Shown here one piece after another: positions 6,353 through 59,287 of a stretch of DNA of 64,000 nt. Origin of the DNA: Geminicoccaceae bacterium. Its GTDB lineage: Bacteria; Pseudomonadota; Alphaproteobacteria; Geminicoccales; Geminicoccaceae. Position 1 is the stretch's first letter, and each line of letters opens with the position of its first letter. The DNA is taken from NCBI GenBank assembly GCA_028279345.1, contig JANQNY010000039.1, forward strand, positions 1-64,000, read 5' to 3'. The notes under the pieces were generated by a model that did no database searches, had not been told where the DNA came from, and saw nothing but the letters and a program-made list of their open reading frames with translations. The position numbers were made by a program, and so were the translations under genes.

Positions 6353-8152
6353 TCAGCTCTCCATCTTGAGCGCAGCGAGGAAGGCCTCTTGGGGGATCTC
6401 CACCTTGCCGAACTGGCGCATGCGCTTCTTCCCCGCCTTCTGCTTCTCTAGGAGCTTGCGCTTTCTCGTGACGTCCCCGCCATAGCACTTGGCGAGCACG
6501 TCCTTGCGCATCGCCTTCACGGTCTCACGCGCGATGATGCGGCCGCCGATCGCTGCCTGGATCGCCACCTGGAACTGCTGGCGCGGGATCAGGTCCTTGA
6601 GCTTCTCGCAGAGCGCGCGGCCGCGTGCCTCGGCCATCGAGCGGTGGACCAGGAGCGCCAGGCTGTCGACCCGATCGCCGTTGATGAGAATGTCCATGCG
6701 CACCAGGTCCGACTGGTCGAAGCCGTCGAGCTGGTAGTCGAAGCTTGCATAGCCGCGGCTGATCGATTTGAGGCGGTCGTAGAAGTCGTAGACAACCTCG
6801 TTGAGCGGCAGGCGGTAGACCAGCATCGCCCGCTGGCCCACATAAGTGAGTTCGTGCTGCACGCCGCGCTTCTCGGTGCACAGCGCCAAGACCGCGCCCA
6901 GATAGTCGTCCGGAACGATGATCGTCGCCTTGATCCAGGGCTCCTCCAGGAACTCGATCTGGGTCGGATCGGGGAAGTCGGCAGGGTTGTGGAGCTCGAC
7001 CGTCTGGCCGTCCCGGCGGTGCAGCCGATAGACCACCGAGGGTGCCGTCAGCACGAGGTCGAGATCGAACTCGCGGTCGAGCCGCTCCTGGATCACCTCG
7101 AGATGCAAGAGCCCCAAGAAGCCGCAGCGGAAGCCGAAGCCGAGCGCTTGGCTGTTCTCCGGCTCGAACTCGAAGCTCGAATCGTTGAGCCGGAGCTTCC
7201 CCAGGGCATCGCGCAGCGTCGGGTAGTCGGCACCGTCGGCCGGAAACATGCCGCAGAAGACGACGGGCTGCGAGGGCCGGAAGCCCGGTAGCGGGGCCTC
7301 CGCGCGACGCCGGTCGTCGGTGATGGTGTCACCGACCTGGGCATCGATGATGTCCTTGATGCCCGCCGTGATGAAGCCGATCTCGCCCGGTCCCAAGCCA
7401 TCGATGACCAGGGGCTTGGGCGTGAACACGCCGACGCGCTCGACGGGATGCACAGCGCCTGTGCCCATGAAGCGAACGCGCATGCCCTTCTCGAGCCGGC
7501 CCTGCTTGACCCGCAGGAGCGTCATCACGCCGAGATAGGGGTCGTACCAGCTATCGACGACGAGCGCCTGGAGTGGCGCTTCAAGGTCACCCGCCGGCGC
7601 CGGGAGCCGCGAGACGATCGCCTCCAACACGTCGTCGACGCCTTGGCCCGTCTTGGCCGAGATCAGCAGCGCTTCGGCGGCATCAAGCCCTAGGATGTCC
7701 TCGATCTGCTCCTTCATCTGCTCCGGCTCCGCAGCCGGCAGGTCGATCTTGTTGAGCACGACGACGATCTCGTGGTCGGCATCGATCGCCTGGTACGCGT
7801 TGGCGAGCGTCTGCGCCTCGACACCCTGGGTCGCATCGACCAGCAGGAGTGAGCCCTCACACGCGCGCATCGAGCGGCTGACCTCGTAAGCGAAATCGAC
7901 ATGACCCGGCGTGTCGACGAGGTTGAAGACGTAGTCTTTGCCGTCCTTCGCTCGGTAGTTGAGGCGGACCGTCTGCGCCTTGATGGTGATGCCGCGCTCG
8001 CGCTCGATGTCCATGGAATCGAGGACCTGCCCGCGCATCTCACGGGCATCGAGCGCGCCACAGCGCTCGATGATGCGATCAGCCAACGTCGACTTGCCGT
8101 GGTCGATGTGCGCGACGATCGAGAAATTGCGCAGACGGGCGAGGTCGGTCAC
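6353..8152 (-). CDS. lepA: Elongation factor 4 (LepA)
   Basis: The 599-residue product has the translational GTPase G domain at its start: AHIDHGKST (G1), RGITI (switch I region), DTPGHVDF (G3) and NKIDLP (G4). The later domains and the C-terminal [19 protein letters not shown] tail are those of LepA/EF4, a ribosome-associated GTPase that promotes back-translocation or rescues stalled elongation. Length equals the family norm. It is the last gene of the rpmI-rplT-pheS-pheT-lepA run, 28 bp after pheT. Nothing is unusual in the sequence. Confidence 0.97.
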
Positions 8153-8180
8153 CCCGGATCCCTTGCTGAGTGGCGGAGCG

Positions 8181-10577
8181 CTATTGCCGAAGCTCGGCGC
8201 CGCAGGCCTGCCGCGCCGCTTCGGTCACGCGTCTTGCGACATCCTCGATGTCGGCGTCGCCGAGCGTCCGGTCAAGCGCTTGCATGCGCACGGCGACGGC
8301 GAGCGACCGCTTGCCCTCGGGCACGCCCTTCCCCGCATAGTCGTCGAACAGCGTGACGTCGCGGATCAGATCCGAAGCCTTGCCGACCGCAGCGAGCAAG
8401 TCGCCCGCCGGTGCCGTGGCGTCGACCAGAAACGCGAAGTCGCGATCGACCGGCTGGTAGGCCGACGCGCTGAGCGGCGGCCGGGCGCGGATCTTCGCGG
8501 GCTTCGGTTGCGGCAGCCAGTCGAGAAACAGCTCGAAGCCGACGACGCGACCCTTCCAGTCGAACAGCTTCGCCAGGCCCGGATGCAACTCACCGAAGGT
8601 CGCGACCACCTCGCGGCCGATCTTGAAGACACCCGAGCGACCGGGATGGAAATGCGCCGGCGCCGACGTCTCGAGCCGCAGCGACGCGAGGTTGACGCCG
8701 GTGGCTTCCAGCGCGGCCAACGCATCGCCCTTGGCGTCGAGCGCATCCGCGGGCCTGTCGGGCTCGCCCCAGCTCCGCGGAGTAGCGCTGCCGGCCCGAA
8801 CCGCCGCCGCTGCCCACGTCTGACCGCCTGCCTCGGCGGCCGTGAAGATCGCTGCCACTTCGAACAGGGCCGCGTCGTCGAGCGCCCGCGCCTGGTTGCG
8901 CCCGACGGCAGCCGCGAGCGATGGCAACAGCGAGGGTCGCATGGCGACGAGATCTGCGCTGATCGGATTGGCCACCCTTACTTGGGCGCCGCCGAAGGCC
9001 GCAGCTTCGGCCTCGCCGATGAAGCTGAAGGTCACCGTCTCTTCCAACCCGCGTGCGGCCAAGGCGCGACGCAGGCGCAGCCGGCGAAGTTGGGAGCTAT
9101 CGAGGATCGGTCGGCCAACTGCGCGCTCGCGCCGGACCGGTGTGGCCGGGATCGCATCGAAGCCGCGGATACGGGCAAGTTCCTCGACGAGGTCCGCCGC
9201 ACGCGTGCAGTCGTGCCGCCAGGTGGGCGTGCTGACCACGAACCGCCCCTCGCCTTCCGACGCCGTACCGAAGCCGAGATCACCAAGAATGCGCTCGACC
9301 TCGGCGTCGTCCAGCACGAGACCCGTAAGCCGCGTGAGCTCGCGCCTGTCGAAGGCGATCGTGCGACGGTTGTCGGGCACGCAGCCGGCCACGACGATGG
9401 AGCCCGCCTCACCGCCACAGAGCGTCTGGATCATGCGCGTCGCATAGTCTGCCGCGGGCAGGACGAAGCCGGGATCAACGCCACGCTCGAAGCGCTGCCG
9501 CGCATCGCTCTCGATGCCCAGCCGGCGGCCGGTCCGCGCCGTCCGGACCGGATCGAACAGCGCCATCTCGAGGAGCACGTTAGTGGTCGCTTCATCGCAG
9601 CCGGTGCTCGCGCCGCCCATGATCCCGGCAAGGCTGACAATGCCCGTATCGTCGCAGATGACGGCCATACCGGCGTCAAGCACGTACGTCTTGTCGTCGA
9701 GGCCCCGGAACGTTTCGCCGGCTTTCGCAAAACGCAAGTAGAGGTCACCGCGGACCTTGTCGGCATCGAAGACATGCAGCGGTCGGCACATGTCGAGCGT
9801 CGACCAGTTGGTGATGTCGACCAGCGCCGTGATCGGCCGCAAGCCAACCGCCTTGAGCCGCTCCTGCAGCCAAGCCGGGCTGGGCCCGTTCTGGACATCG
9901 CGCAGCTCGCGGAGGATAAAGAGTGGGCAGGCGTCGCGTGCCTCGTGCGGAAACCGGAGGTCAACGCCTCGCGACGTAGCGAACGCCGCCTCGACCGGAC
10001 GCGCGTCCGGCTCTTTCAGTGTCCCAAGCCCTGCAGCCGCGAGTTCGCGAGCAAGACCGTGGACGCCGAAGCCGTCGCCGCGGTTGGGCGTGACGGCAAC
10101 ATCGAAGACTGGACCTTCGAGGCTTAGAGCCTCAGCGGCCGGTGTCCCCACCCCGGGCTCGTCGCCCACATCGATGATGCCGTCGTGATCTTCGCCGATG
10201 CCGAGTTCGCGTGCCGAGCAAAGCATGCCCTGGCTCTCGACGCCGCGGATGGTTGAGCGCTTGAGCGGGGTGCCCGTCGATGGGATCACCGAGCCTTCAG
10301 GCGCAAAGATGCCCTTCATACCCAGCCGCACATTGGGCGCCCCGCAGATGACCTCGAAGGTCCCGTCCTTCGTGTCCACCGTGCAAAGGCTCAAGCGGTC
10401 GGCGTTGGGGTGCTGGCGTACGCCCGTCACGTGACCGACCGAGAAGCCGTCGAGATCGGCGCCGCGCGGCTCGATCCCTTCCAGCTCGAAGCCGATGGCC
10501 GTCAGCGTCCATCCGATCGTCTCCGCGTCGGCGTTGGTCTCCAGATGCTCACGGAGCCACGGCAGCGTGACCTTCAT
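8181..10577 (-). CDS. pheT: Phenylalanyl-tRNA synthetase beta subunit
   Basis: The 798-residue protein starts [14 protein letters not shown], followed by the EMAP-like tRNA-binding segment ([19 protein letters not shown]), the B3/B4 editing region, the B5 domain and a C-terminal anticodon-binding (FDX-ACB) domain. It pairs with PheS to charge tRNA-Phe. The ATG at 10577 overlaps the pheS TGA (ATGA), which implies translational coupling for equal subunit supply. The open frame continues far upstream inside pheS, but that part is a shadow. Length matches the family. Confidence 0.97.
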
Positions 10578-11676: not shown

Positions 11677-12036
11677 TCAGGCGGGGAGCGCTGCGTGCGC
11701 CGTCTTGAGGACCTCGTGAAAGCCCTGGGGATCACGAGCAGCGAGGTCGGCCAGCACCTTGCGGTCGAGCTCGAGCCCGGCCAGGTCCAGGCCGTGGATG
11801 AGCTTGCCGTAGGTGAGCCCATGCTCGCGCGCCGCCGCGTTGATGCGCTGGATCCAGAGCGCGCGGAACTCGCGCTTCCGCGTGCGCCGGTCGCGATAGG
11901 CATACTGCCAATCACGCTCGACGCGCTGCTTGGCGACGCGAATGGTGTTCTTGGCGCGCCCGCGGCTGCCCTTGGCAAGCTTCAGGACCTTCTTGTGCCG
12001 CGCATGCGAGGTCACACCCCGCTTGACCCGTGCCAT
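11677..12036 (-). CDS. rplT: 50S ribosomal protein L20
   Basis: This 119-residue basic protein begins [16 protein letters not shown] and contains [17 protein letters not shown], hallmarks of L20, an early 23S rRNA-binding assembly protein. It sits 26 bp after rpmI, the nearly universal pairing. In many bacteria L20 represses its own operon by binding the leader; I see no clear leader mimic here. infC, which often precedes rpmI, is not in this position. Confidence 0.97.
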
Positions 12037-15824: not shown

Positions 15825-16175
15825 GGCTGCGCTCCCCAGCGGCGGCGCAAGGCGCCGCGGAACCTATGTCTACGGCTGAGCGATCGACTAGGCAAACGGA
15901 TGAGGATACGCAGGACCTGCGCCGCAGAGCGCTCTATGTACGAAGTATGTCAGATCACTCCAGGCAAAACTCGCTACGCGCTACCGCACACAGTCCATCG
16001 TACTCGGCGCGCCGTGTCGATAGCCTCGCGGTTTGGCTGTCCTCGTGACGTCGTTAGCGTGGGGTCGGACGGGGGGCCACCTGCGTGCCCAGGAGACCCA
16101 GTCGACAGGTCACTCCGGGGTAGGCGATAAAGAGGCGCCTTTTGGCGAACGCGCCAACGGATGCCGATCGGCAGG
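15825..16175. other. Junction region, no gene (350 bp)
   Basis: Composition changes from GC-rich to AT-rich near 16170. No ORF here is convincing. A GC-rich inverted repeat (GGCGCC, then TTTTGGCG and CGCCAA near 16133-16160) is visible, but I cannot assign it. This is the left flank of the island carrying the kinase-like gene. Confidence 0.4.
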
Positions 16176-17300
16176 TCAGTGCTGCTCTAAACAAAGATGA
16201 AATTTTCTGTCGAATAGATCTTCAAGTACAGCGAAAACTACAAGACTCCTTTGCTCGGCGAGAGATTTTTTTGCAACAAATGAGTAAGAACAAAGATACC
16301 TAAGCAGTAGAGAATTGTAGACCGTCTGAATCCCCAAGATTTGCTCCGCATTTGCTTCCATGCAAGATTCTCTGAAGAGCATGTCCGCAAGATTAATTCT
16401 AATTGCCTGGATCGATCTTGAAAGTTTGTCGGTTCCAAACAATTCAAACATATTAATGCGGCTATAGATTCTTCTAGCAATTGGCGCATACATGTCTGTA
16501 TCGGCTTCAAGCGCGGCAACAATAAGTGCGACCTCAAACTCTGCGAAGTCATTTAGCAGACAGCCTTCCTGCCGCATCATTTCAAAATCAATGATTATTG
16601 GAGACAACCGCTTGTTAACAATGACATTTTCACAGTGGAGATCACCATGGACCATACCGTGCGGCAATTCTGGTGTGGGCGCATATTCAATAAACTCATT
16701 ATATTGCCGGACCATTTCGGACAATCTTTTGCTTCCAATCTCCGAAAAACGAGATTCGTTATGGAAAAGATGCTCGAACTTGCAGTAATCTACGTCTTCT
16801 CCAAAAGCATGCAGGTCTTTCATAACAATACCAAATAATTCATCAATCAACTCGATCATTGTGTATTTATTTATACTTGAAAATGCTTCAAGCAAAGAAG
16901 TTGATGGTGTTCCTTTATTATGACCAGAAATGTAACGATAAGCAACTAAAGCAGATTTAGCCACGTTTTCTGAATAATACTTATCAATGCTTCCATCGAT
17001 AACGGTTTCCAATGGAGGTATGTATAGCGGTGGAATACGAGCAGATGCTCGATTGAAGTTACTTACTTCCTTGTTAATTGTCTTTTTTTCTCCGATTTTA
17101 ATAAAGTACGGATATACGTTTCTTGAATGCGCCAAAAGCTTTGTCGTTTTTGACATACCAATCTGAATAGTCTTAAACCTAAATTCGATACTGCTGCTTT
17201 CCATTTGATATCGACGGGCTATATGTCTGGAGAAATGCTGGATTAGTTCTACCTCGGCTTGCGAGAGGCGCCCATCATTCAAGTAAAACTCGCCACTCAT
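16176..17300 (-). CDS. APH/choline-kinase-like phosphotransferase (AT-rich)
   Basis: This 374-residue protein has a protein-kinase-like phosphotransferase fold pattern: a putative ATP-binding Lys in YFIKIGEKK (about residue 68), the catalytic loop HGMVHGDLHCENVIVN (about residue 218) and the metal-binding IIIDFEMM (about 236), followed by LNDFAEFEVAL. The His-Gly-Asp-x-His-x-x-Asn and Ile-Asp-Phe-Glu motifs are intact, so it is probably an active small-molecule or protein kinase. Codon use is AT-rich, with Ile, Lys and Asn far above its neighbours, a clear sign of transfer. The DFAxxE segment after the metal motif recalls kinase-like domains of bacterial conflict systems (TCAD9-type), but I cannot confirm that. 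Antibiotic phosphorylation is an alternative. Confidence 0.75.
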   Translation of the reverse strand: MSGEFYLNDGRLSQAEVELIQHFSRHIARRYQMESSSIEFRFKTIQIGMSKTTKLLAHSRNVYPYFIKIGEKKTINKEVSNFNRASARIPPLYIPPLETVIDGSIDKYYSENVAKSALVAYRYISGHNKGTPSTSLLEAFSSINKYTMIELIDELFGIVMKDLHAFGEDVDYCKFEHLFHNESRFSEIGSKRLSEMVRQYNEFIEYAPTPELPHGMVHGDLHCENVIVNKRLSPIIIDFEMMRQEGCLLNDFAEFEVALIVAALEADTDMYAPIARRIYSRINMFELFGTDKLSRSIQAIRINLADMLFRESCMEANAEQILGIQTVYNSLLLRYLCSYSFVAKKSLAEQRSLVVFAVLEDLFDRKFHLCLEQH

Positions 17301-17842
17301 GACGCCACTCCGTTGTTTCCGGTCAAATCTTATGCAAGCTGGGCGGCGATTTGCTAGCTCGAATCCAACGCTTAAGATCAGGGTTTCCGTAAGCTACCTA
17401 ACCAAGACATTACTATCTACATTGCGGCAACTTATTAAAACGTTGACGCTGCATTTTTCTCGCAATAATTTAATCATAATTGGTGCTTTCTTTTTCTTCT
17501 TTTGAAGAGGGTGTCAACTTCGCGCTTCACGCAAACTTTATTGATTAAGAACTTCTTTGCGAAATTCGTGATGATTTGTATGGGCGGCAGGAAGCTGCCC
17601 TGGATGGGGTTGGGGTGTGCCAACTTGGTCCCTGGATCGCTGCGCGGCCCGCTATTGCATCCCCGCTTCCCACCATCGTTCTTCTCCTCTCCACACACCT
17701 CGCGCCATCCACGGCGACGCGGCAAGGACACTGACAGGATATCTAGCACAGACCATTTTTGGCGCTGTTGCAACGCGCGCAACTTTCGGCTGCCAACAGA
17801 TGCCCTCTACGGATGCCAGGGACCTCGACTCGAACGATAACG
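17301..17842. other. AT-rich to GC-rich junction, no gene (540 bp)
   Basis: The first half is AT-rich and contains poly-pyrimidine and poly-T runs near 17490-17510. Composition becomes GC-rich from about 17580. Short frames exist but none looks coding. The promoter of the kinase gene must lie in its left part. The right part contains a sequence like an IS6-family inverted repeat. Confidence 0.4.
17761..17773 (+). repeat. Possible IS6-family terminal repeat remnant
   Basis: GGCGCTGTTGCAA matches the conserved end of IS6/IS26-type elements (GGCACTGTTGCAA) at 12 of 13 positions. It lies at the edge of the AT-rich island. No transposase gene and no opposite end were seen, so chance is a fair alternative. 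Confidence 0.25.
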
Positions 17843-56512: not shown

Positions 56513-56735
56513 GGAACCCACCAGAGACCGCGGCTCCGGCCCCAAACTCCGGCACCATGGCACCTCCCAAGCATTGATAGGCTAGTCAGATCGGATCCGC
56601 CGCCGAAACTACGAAACGAATCGCTCGGCGGTTGTTGCCGCGGTTGAGCTAACGCTCCTACTAGGTTTACCCTTGCGCAACTTTGCCTGAAACTAAGACA
56701 ACCACAAGCTCGACCACACGGAATAGCCACAGAAT

Positions 56736-58964
56736 ATGCCTCCCGATCGTAAGCACAGAAAGCTCTTAAAGATTTTTCTAGCCTCACCAGGCGATCTTCA
56801 AGACGAACGAAAGATCGCACGACGAATTGTCGTCGAAGAAAACACTAATCATGCCAACGTACTTGGCTACCATATCGAACTGGTCGGCTGGGAAGAGACT
56901 GTCGCGCAATTCCGTCGTGCACAAGAGGTCATAAATAGAGACTTAGATCAATGTGATTTCTTTGTTGGCCTTATGTGGAAGCGCTGGGGAACCCCGCCCG
57001 GACCAGTAGGTCACCCTTACACGTCAGGTTTTGAGGAGGAGTACACACGTTCTGTTGAGCGACACCATAGAACAGGTGCGCCGGAGATAGCTCTACTATT
57101 CAAACAGGTGAGCGCAGATCAGCTTGCCGACCAGGGCCCTGAACTTAAGCGTGTTCAGAGCTTCAAGGAAAAAATTAAAAATGAAAAGACGGCTTTGTTT
57201 CAGGAATTTGGTGATCTGACGGAATTTGACCAACGTTTTCGCACCATCGCATCCTTTTTTTTGCACCAAGAATATGCGAGTGATTTGTTAAAAATCAACA
57301 AAGCTGACGAGCCCGTTGCCCTTTCATACTCCGAGGCGCAGTCGCTTGATCAAGCTCCTACCGATGGAATTTTTGATGAGTCAGTACGCGTTCTTGTGAA
57401 TAACGAAATTCTTGCGCGCCCGAAGATCGACGAATTAGCACCATCTGCAGCGGCGCGCTTTCGGCTTCTTGGCCATACGATCATCAGAGCCGGAAATGAT
57501 GATTCTTCGCTGGGAGTTCACGATGCCAATCTCATCTTTCGCGATTTCCGTCAGCGCGCGCTGTCGGAACGCGAAGTGCGCGGACTTATTAATGCTGCGC
57601 TTGAGAAGCTCACTAGCGAAATCGCCCCGCTGTGGCATTGGCTGAGCGAAACTCGTTCGTCTCCATCGATGGAGTTGGCACTTCGCACGCTATATGGAGG
57701 AGACCGCGTTCAAGCGAACGCTTTTCGGGCGCTCTCCCTGCTCGGTCTCTGCCTGAAAGACCTGACACACACGCTAAAGCGAGAGGCTTTCTTGAGCGTG
57801 TGGTTCTCGGTCGACTCTCCGGATCAGGTCAAGATCGCCGCCCTTTCGTTCCTTGCGACGTCCGGTTCCGACGACAATCTCTCTGCGATTGAGCCCTCAC
57901 TAGATAGTGCAGCTGCTAATGTCGCCGCCGCGGCCGTGAGGGCAAAAGCTCAGATTCTATTGAAACGAAGTAGCGCGGATGCTCTGCGGTTCATTTCCGA
58001 ATGGGAGGACGTCGATATTGGGAACGCCCTAGCTGAAAAATTGATGCGCAATCCACTGGCCATTCCCACGGACGCGCCTAAACTGTGCCTCGAAAACAAA
58101 TCACGGCGGCTTCAGCAGCTTGTCACCGAGGAGTTGCAGCGACGTAACGCGCTCACCCAAGAGGATGCCAGGCAGCTTTGCGCCAGCGACAATGCAGACG
58201 CAAGGCTGTCCGGCGTACTTGCGCTCCGGGAGACGACGGGGGCATTAGCCTTTGCCGACGCTCGCGATACGATTCTTAGAACGCGTTCATCGCTGCTTTC
58301 ACCGTTTTTTGGCCTCCTCGCTCCGCCTCCCGATCGGGCCGCGTCTGACGCATTCGGTATATTCAAGAAAGAAGTACTGCTCGAAAAATCGTTTGACGAA
58401 CTTCTTCATTTACGCAATTCAGCTGGCCCAAGCGATATTGAGGAGATATTAACTTTTTATGAAAAATTTTTTCAGAAGAAGCGCGACAAAATTCATTGCC
58501 ATTTGCGCAATAAATTTTGTGATTTCTTCTCTGAAAACAAGAAGAACGATAATGGAGATTCGGTTATTACCGATGACAAGAAGATCGCTTCGGCAAGAAA
58601 ACAACTATGCGAAGGAATGATCCAAATTGTTTGCAGATATGGTGACTTGAGAGAACTCTCTCTTGTTCGCTGGGCGATCGACGAAAAAGACATAGGCTAC
58701 CATGCGGCAATGATGAATTTCCTAGGACGCTACGGCGAGTGGCAGGACGTGCGCAGAATTATTTCTGTAGCGGATAGCCAGAAACCGAGCGGATTAAGCC
58801 TTCTTTCAATTGTAGACACCGATCGTGAAGACGCTGCCGCAGCGCAAGCAATACTGAAGATTGGAGCGGATCGTATAGCAGATGTGCTTTGCGCCGATCC
58901 ACCTTCTGGCATTAAAAAAAACCTTCATTCATATGACCAAGAAGGTTTTTTGCGGATTAGATAA
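56736..58964 (+). CDS. DUF4062 protein with helical (HEAT-like) C-terminus
   Basis: The 742-residue protein opens with a DUF4062 domain (about residues 8-165): KIFLASPGDLQDERKIARRI, GWEETVAQFRRAQEVINRDL and CDFFVGLMWKRWG. DUF4062 is a TIR/flavodoxin-like domain found at the N-termini of bacterial STAND and other conflict proteins. From about residue 270 on, the sequence is a long series of helices with HEAT/armadillo-like spacing (VKIAALSFLATSGSDDNLSAI and ADARLSGVLALRETTGA are examples). No NACHT P-loop is seen. The frame stops at 58962-58964, 40 bp after an A8 run; a further repeat-like segment continues in another frame to 59193. Codon use is AT-rich. A defence or signalling role is inference. 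Confidence 0.75.
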   Translation: MPPDRKHRKLLKIFLASPGDLQDERKIARRIVVEENTNHANVLGYHIELVGWEETVAQFRRAQEVINRDLDQCDFFVGLMWKRWGTPPGPVGHPYTSGFEEEYTRSVERHHRTGAPEIALLFKQVSADQLADQGPELKRVQSFKEKIKNEKTALFQEFGDLTEFDQRFRTIASFFLHQEYASDLLKINKADEPVALSYSEAQSLDQAPTDGIFDESVRVLVNNEILARPKIDELAPSAAARFRLLGHTIIRAGNDDSSLGVHDANLIFRDFRQRALSEREVRGLINAALEKLTSEIAPLWHWLSETRSSPSMELALRTLYGGDRVQANAFRALSLLGLCLKDLTHTLKREAFLSVWFSVDSPDQVKIAALSFLATSGSDDNLSAIEPSLDSAAANVAAAAVRAKAQILLKRSSADALRFISEWEDVDIGNALAEKLMRNPLAIPTDAPKLCLENKSRRLQQLVTEELQRRNALTQEDARQLCASDNADARLSGVLALRETTGALAFADARDTILRTRSSLLSPFFGLLAPPPDRAASDAFGIFKKEVLLEKSFDELLHLRNSAGPSDIEEILTFYEKFFQKKRDKIHCHLRNKFCDFFSENKKNDNGDSVITDDKKIASARKQLCEGMIQIVCRYGDLRELSLVRWAIDEKDIGYHAAMMNFLGRYGEWQDVRRIISVADSQKPSGLSLLSIVDTDREDAAAAQAILKIGADRIADVLCADPPSGIKKNLHSYDQEGFLRIR

Positions 58965-59193
58965 CGATCAAATCATTAGATTATTATTTGATTCTTCAGA
59001 TTCGGTGAGGAAAATTGTAGCGCTGAGAGCAGTGCACGGTCTGCAAAAAAAACGCATTACCGAGCTAATGTCTTTGTACCTAGCGTCAGAACAAAGACGT
59101 TACTATAATGCAGTATTTTGGCTTGATCTTGGCATCTCTCTTCCCTCAAAGCATGCTCGCGAAGTAGCTCTGCGAGAAATAAATACACTTTGA
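58933..59193 (+). CDS. Out-of-frame C-terminal continuation of DUF4062 protein
   Basis: This frame encodes 86 residues with the same AT-rich composition and HEAT-like pattern as the upstream gene (NDQIIRLLFDSSDSVRKIVA and QKKRITELMSLYLASEQ). Loss of one base in the A8 run (58914-58921) or the T6 run (58946-58951) would join it to the upstream frame. It could instead be translated from the ATG at 58933, inside the end of the upstream gene. Which applies, or whether it is a broken gene, is open. Confidence 0.5.
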   Translation: MTKKVFCGLDNDQIIRLLFDSSDSVRKIVALRAVHGLQKKRITELMSLYLASEQRRYYNAVFWLDLGISLPSKHAREVALREINTL

Positions 59194-59287
59194 ATACCAA
59201 ACGCAAGATTTTGTTCTGTGATGAATTCCACTCAATGCTTCTTTAGTATTCTAATGGATCGATTTAACGCCATAACCGCTGCGAGAT

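Follow-up and report, generated by a model that had tools for sequence, protein, structure and literature searches.

Locus and gene organisation

An AT-rich island without assigned strand, positions 56580–59287, is located downstream of the recO-parC pair in the window (the whole 64,000-nucleotide stretch of DNA that was analysed). Its sole gene encodes a DUF4062 protein and has a VOC gene on one side and parC on the other. The features of the locus are the following:

56580–59287, no strand: AT-rich island with the DUF4062 gene as its sole gene, inserted downstream of recO-parC
56736–58964, plus strand: open reading frame of 742 amino acids, containing the DUF4062 TIR-like domain and most of the HEAT-like solenoid
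56760–57290, plus strand: TIR-like (DUF4062) domain, residues about 9–185, from PF13271, AlphaFold2 topology and structural matches
57039–57041, plus strand: codon of Glu102, the third Glu of SGFEEE, presumed catalytic
57378–58913, plus strand: in-frame part of the HEAT/ARM-like alpha solenoid (AlphaFold2 helices 215–739)
57456–57566, plus strand: family-specific conserved block RFRLL...GNDD..LG.HDANLIFR, residues 241–277, where the helical domain begins
58914–58921, plus strand: A8 run, the site where the reading frame is lost; frame 0 stops at 58964 and the homology goes on in the +1 frame
58909–59193, plus strand: +1-frame segment coding for the carboxy-terminal solenoid cap, with the YYNxxxWLDLGxS motif

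Measured in 150-bp steps, the GC content of the island varies from 0.34 to 0.61 across the gene, against 0.67–0.70 in the flanks. The gene as a whole has a GC content of 0.50 and a GC3 of 0.49, compared with 0.67–0.72 and 0.85–0.87 for its neighbours, which bears out an earlier sequence-only reading of it as a lone, transferred-looking gene. The DUF4062 gene is horizontally acquired. The recO-parC adjacency is kept across the family Geminicoccaceae, but none of the relatives has a match to the VOC gene, which makes the stretch downstream of parC a variable one. No flanking repeats were found at the island edges in the window, and no defence gene adjoins the DUF4062 gene at this locus. The helical half of the protein is absent from every other sampled genome of the order, in which other DUF4062 matches occur in one genome only, in proteins of other architecture.

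A second AT-rich island (GC 0.40) is present at positions 15900–17600 of the window. It also contains one gene (16176–17300, minus strand, 374 amino acids), with Pfam matches to TCAD9 (Ternary complex associated domain 9, E-value 3.4e-20) and to APH phosphotransferase (E-value 1.5e-6). This is another lone transferred gene, possibly related to conflict.

Amino-terminal domain

The amino-terminal domain, correctly named by the sequence-only reading, matches PF13271 (DUF4062) over residues 12–104 with an E-value of 5.7e-9 and 36.5 bits, for a cut-off of 24.7; a second search gave 40.6 bits. In the AlphaFold2 model it contains five parallel beta-strands (residues 9–16, 45–51, 75–80, 117–123 and 154–158), connected in the beta-alpha-beta manner of the TIR/NDT type. 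When aligned with VIA-align, the domain matches the RPS4/RRS1 TIR domain with a Z-score of 11.8 over 137 residues, DNPH1, of the nucleoside hydrolase/deoxyribosyltransferase group, with 11.6 and AbTir with 11.1, while the model of the Sneathiella homologue matches the L6 TIR domain with 10.8. Small GTPases follow at about 10, so the assignment of a TIR-like fold also rests on the Pfam match; unrelated Rossmann-like structures are only about 1–2 Z units below the TIR structures.

The catalytic glutamate of TIR NADases sits at the start of the helix that follows the third strand. In the AlphaFold2 model Glu102 is found at the start of helix 99–113, after the third strand, and it is invariant in 17 of 17 aligned DUF4062 domains from several phyla; it is likely to be the catalytic glutamate. 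Mapped by this invariance, Glu102, whose counterpart in the Sneathiella homologue is E97, would be the equivalent of residue E97 of the Swarozyc protein KpSwz (UniParc UPI001927123B), which provides defence by abortive infection, needs E97 and senses the phage portal through an HTH/winged auxiliary domain (PMC13174449). The same 2026 preprint describes DUF4062 as a TIR-like NADase (PMC13174449), a result that has overtaken any view of the domain as unusual and unknown. By this likeness, the DUF4062 domain encoded in the window is a putative TIR-like NADase.

Helical domain and absence of an NTPase

AlphaFold2 was applied to the window protein (pLDDT 75) and to the intact homologue from Sneathiella (pLDDT 78). 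Both models begin with the five-stranded beta-alpha-beta domain and continue with helices only, and the HEAT-like helical region proposed before is seen in both as an all-alpha solenoid. Its arrangement is uncertain, with pTM values of 0.48–0.55 and an alignment of only seven sequences. Foldseek matches of the helical part are to PP2A-A, karyopherins and beta-catenin, and its profile matches engineered HEAT chains (alphaRep) with an E-value of 6e-6. When the single protein sequence was used to search solved structures, only weak armadillo matches were obtained (APC, E-value 0.13).

In the family-specific block of residues 241–277, in the first part of the helical domain, residues R, R, L, G, N, D, G, H and D are common to all seven members compared. 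The window and Sneathiella proteins share 59% identity over the TIR-like half and 31% over the solenoid. The DUF4062 half, the amino-terminal cap (GNDD..G.HD.N) and the carboxy-terminal cap (YYN..WLDLG) are conserved, while the linker and mid-solenoid vary. This pattern is compatible with, but no proof of, a fixed effector joined to a diversifying receptor. DSR2 combines a SIR2 NADase with HEAT repeats and is switched on by the tail tube protein of a phage (PMC11263360); by analogy, it is plausible that the repeats of the window protein sense an invader.

In the window protein, no NTPase family, NACHT and NB-ARC included, is matched in Pfam at E-values up to 10, and a Walker A motif is absent from it and from four intact homologues, in agreement with the sequence-only reading. 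The accompanying statement that a STAND NTPase is usual in DUF4062 proteins fits the human proteins (PMC13174449) but is too general, as KpSwz has an HTH/winged domain instead and several bacterial DUF4062 proteins are short, with 289–543 amino acids.

Homologues and their genomic neighbours

Homologues with the same helical half were found in Sneathiella (806 amino acids; locus L009, 9386–11806), a Caulobacterales metagenome-assembled genome (821), Seohaeicola (818; locus L010, 9377–11833) and genome G732 (820). Further members are present in genome G580, in genome G508, where the gene is cut by the contig end, and on the Asticcacaulis plasmid pASEM-1; the family is rare and scattered over the Pseudomonadota, with a patchy distribution and members in roughly 1% or less of the searched genomes. 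Weak profile matches with E-values of 1e-3 to 1e-5 (loci L008, L042–L044, L047 and L048) were taken for generic matches to helical repeats and excluded from the family. No homologue of the window protein was found in the phage and viral collections.

Comparison of the neighbours in other genomes, which had been proposed as a check, revealed mobile and defence contexts. A Cas1 gene (8032–9156) is located 146 nucleotides upstream of the homologue in locus L011, AbiD upstream of that in L019, and a type I restriction R subunit and YgjP adjoin that in L021. The homologue in L010 is near an integrase next to tRNA-Cys, L009 also contains an integrase, and the homologue of L004 is carried by plasmid pASEM-1. 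No conserved partner gene was found beside the homologues.

Some other features of these and related loci were observed. Among the listed open reading frames of the 21.7-kb locus L011, no other cas gene was seen by eye. In G580 (L019), the DUF4062 gene is bracketed by a 270-bp direct repeat with 98% identity (7726–7995 and 11720–11989); a metallo-beta-lactamase-like open reading frame is truncated in the left copy and full in the right one. The repeat may be a trace of the way in which the island was inserted. In locus L022 (1513–4011, 8029–9345), from genome G018, a relative of the window genome, a DUF4062-TPR gene is located between a TIR/NB-ARC/TPR gene and a gene for a TIR and FGE-sulfatase protein. 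On a Chryseobacterium plasmid (L051), a DUF4062 gene directly follows a type I restriction set and precedes a nucleotidyltransferase and an S-4TM pore-forming effector.

Frame break in the window gene

The 742-residue open reading frame is confirmed, but the break at the A8 run had been overlooked, and the full coding region, including the +1-frame tail, is 56736–59193. The homologues extend further, by a conserved carboxy-terminal segment of about 90 residues. In the +1 frame of the window, a profile match covers 58909–59178 with an E-value of 1.3e-24, and the tail is 42% identical to the carboxy-terminus of the Sneathiella protein over 91 residues. All homologues that reach the gene end finish with YY(N/D)xxxWLD(L/M)GxS. 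The window gene is frame-broken, because the conserved segment is present but in the +1 frame. The 90-codon tail is open in its own frame, as are only 0.2% of composition shuffles. In Sneathiella, the nearest homologue, an A7 run occupies the same place, in frame.

A canonical −1 ribosomal frameshift was considered, as A AAA AAC is present, and rejected, since the tail lies in the +1 frame. Because a −1 slip gives the wrong frame, a switch would require transcriptional slippage or variation of the tract. In its assembled form the window copy most likely does not function or is turned off; only an error of assembly, or slippage that puts the tail back in frame, would change this.

A slightly less than even chance is given to the window copy being a decaying pseudogene, in which the break at A8 would be a real inactivating mutation, fixed as the gene became costly or no longer useful. 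The break removes the conserved cap, and the promoter signal of the window gene is not above chance. Other members are disrupted too: the Asticcacaulis member by an IS5 element and the G580 member by loss of frame exactly at a G10 homopolymer (L019, around 9173), while the Cupriavidus member is a fragment. Decay is opposed by the presence of a single lesion, which, together with a tail that is still open and similar to that of Sneathiella, means that any loss of function would be recent; moreover, the lesion may itself be an assembly artefact.

That the break is such an error, of assembly or sequencing in the homopolymer, and the gene intact, is possible but on balance unlikely. The contig comes from a draft genome of 87 contigs, and the break coincides exactly with the A8 run, where the Sneathiella gene has its in-frame A7. 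However, a second A8 and a T8 within the same gene leave the frame unbroken. Short-read assemblers normally cope with A8 runs, which also counts against an error.

It is distinctly improbable that the homopolymer is a slippage switch, turning the gene on and off by tract length or yielding the full-length protein through transcriptional slippage. In its favour, the frame is lost precisely in a homopolymer in two members (A8 for the window, G10 for G580), and being silenced at times would be fitting for a toxic effector. Nevertheless, these tracts differ in position and base, and runs of at least eight are not rare by chance, arising in 11–28% of composition shuffles of these genes.

Proposed function

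The window gene is probably a horizontally acquired, single-gene, NTPase-free abortive-infection NADase, consisting of a TIR-like effector and a HEAT/ARM solenoid sensor. For the intact members of the family, depletion of NAD+ upon sensing of a phage component is the most likely function. In the mechanism proposed, the solenoid would keep the TIR-like domains inactive within an oligomer, and its variable surface would bind a phage structural or assembly protein as the trigger. This binding would free the TIR-like domains to change their arrangement and to hydrolyse NAD+, so that the infected cell would be halted without any need for an NTPase. The defence role suggested by the sequence-only reading is supported by the NADase and anti-phage activity of KpSwz (PMC13174449), by the defence and mobile neighbours of the homologues and by their patchy distribution, but not by the window locus itself, which is without defence neighbours and carries a frame-broken copy.

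It is quite unlikely that the TIR-like domain is instead a maker of a signalling nucleotide, a pseudo-enzyme or a scaffold, the protein being a sensor that feeds another effector. Canonical TIR domains can make a signalling nucleotide or act as pseudo-enzymes or scaffolds, as outlined in the introduction of the preprint, and NWD1, NWD2 and NPHP3 displayed no NADase activity there (PMC13174449). In the present family, however, the presumed catalytic glutamate is invariant and the homologues are without a conserved partner gene for such an effector. That the protein has a housekeeping function and takes no part in defence, as the housekeeping genes beside it in the window might suggest, is very improbable given its atypical composition, its absence elsewhere in the sampled order, bar the DUF4062-only matches in one genome, and the mobile and defence contexts of its homologues.

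A more far-reaching interpretation of the abortive-infection NADase is that the family forms a distinct NTPase-free lineage of DUF4062 NADases, in which a two-capped HEAT solenoid replaces the portal-binding domain of Swarozyc and senses another phage component, like DSR2, and in which homopolymer slippage in the sensor toggles the toxic effector. Taken as a whole this is quite doubtful. If the family does act as an abortive-infection NADase, with or without such a switch, it would add a second sensor type for the newly recognised DUF4062 NADases, and it would be a case of convergence, SIR2 (in DSR2) and TIR-like NADases each being fused to a long HEAT solenoid with no NTPase. The conserved caps and the variable middle of the solenoid would provide a testable map of where regulation and target recognition are to be expected, and intact natural homologues exist for testing.

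Comparison with known systems

Like KpSwz of the Swarozyc system (PMC13174449), the window family is encoded by a single gene and has an amino-terminal DUF4062 domain with a predicted TIR-like alpha/beta fold and an invariant glutamate, without an NTPase. The auxiliary part is different: it is predicted to be a HEAT/ARM solenoid of about 550–600 residues, where KpSwz has its HTH/winged portal-binding domain. On the predicted fold of this part, the window family is not Swarozyc proper.

The general layout recalls DSR2 (PMC11263360): after the NADase domain, which is putative in the window family, comes a long helical region, here predicted to be of HEAT type, with a carboxy-terminal cap, again in a single gene without an NTPase. 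The effector of the window family is TIR-like, while that of DSR2 is SIR2, and SIR2 is not matched in the window protein in Pfam at E-values up to 10; the window family is not DSR2. No sequence similarity to the helical part of DSR2 was found in the PDB profile search. DSR2 chains are also absent from the Foldseek and VIA-align matches shown, which for a helical solenoid says little.

In PADLOC, the phage defence candidate PDC-S60 matches the amino-terminal 180 or so residues of all five members scanned, with E-values of 1e-18 to 2e-33. The match stops at position 166–187 of the 906 of the profile; the remainder of PDC-S60 is accordingly a different domain. The DUF4062 domain is also common to TEP1, which is an NADase, and to other human proteins (PMC13174449), but those carry a NACHT ATPase and several of them also WD40 repeats, neither of which is present in the window family. 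Finally, SpbK and other canonical TIR anti-phage proteins have a TIR-fold NADase and act by abortive infection, as proposed here for the window family; they belong to the canonical TIR families of Pfam, from which DUF4062 is a separate family.
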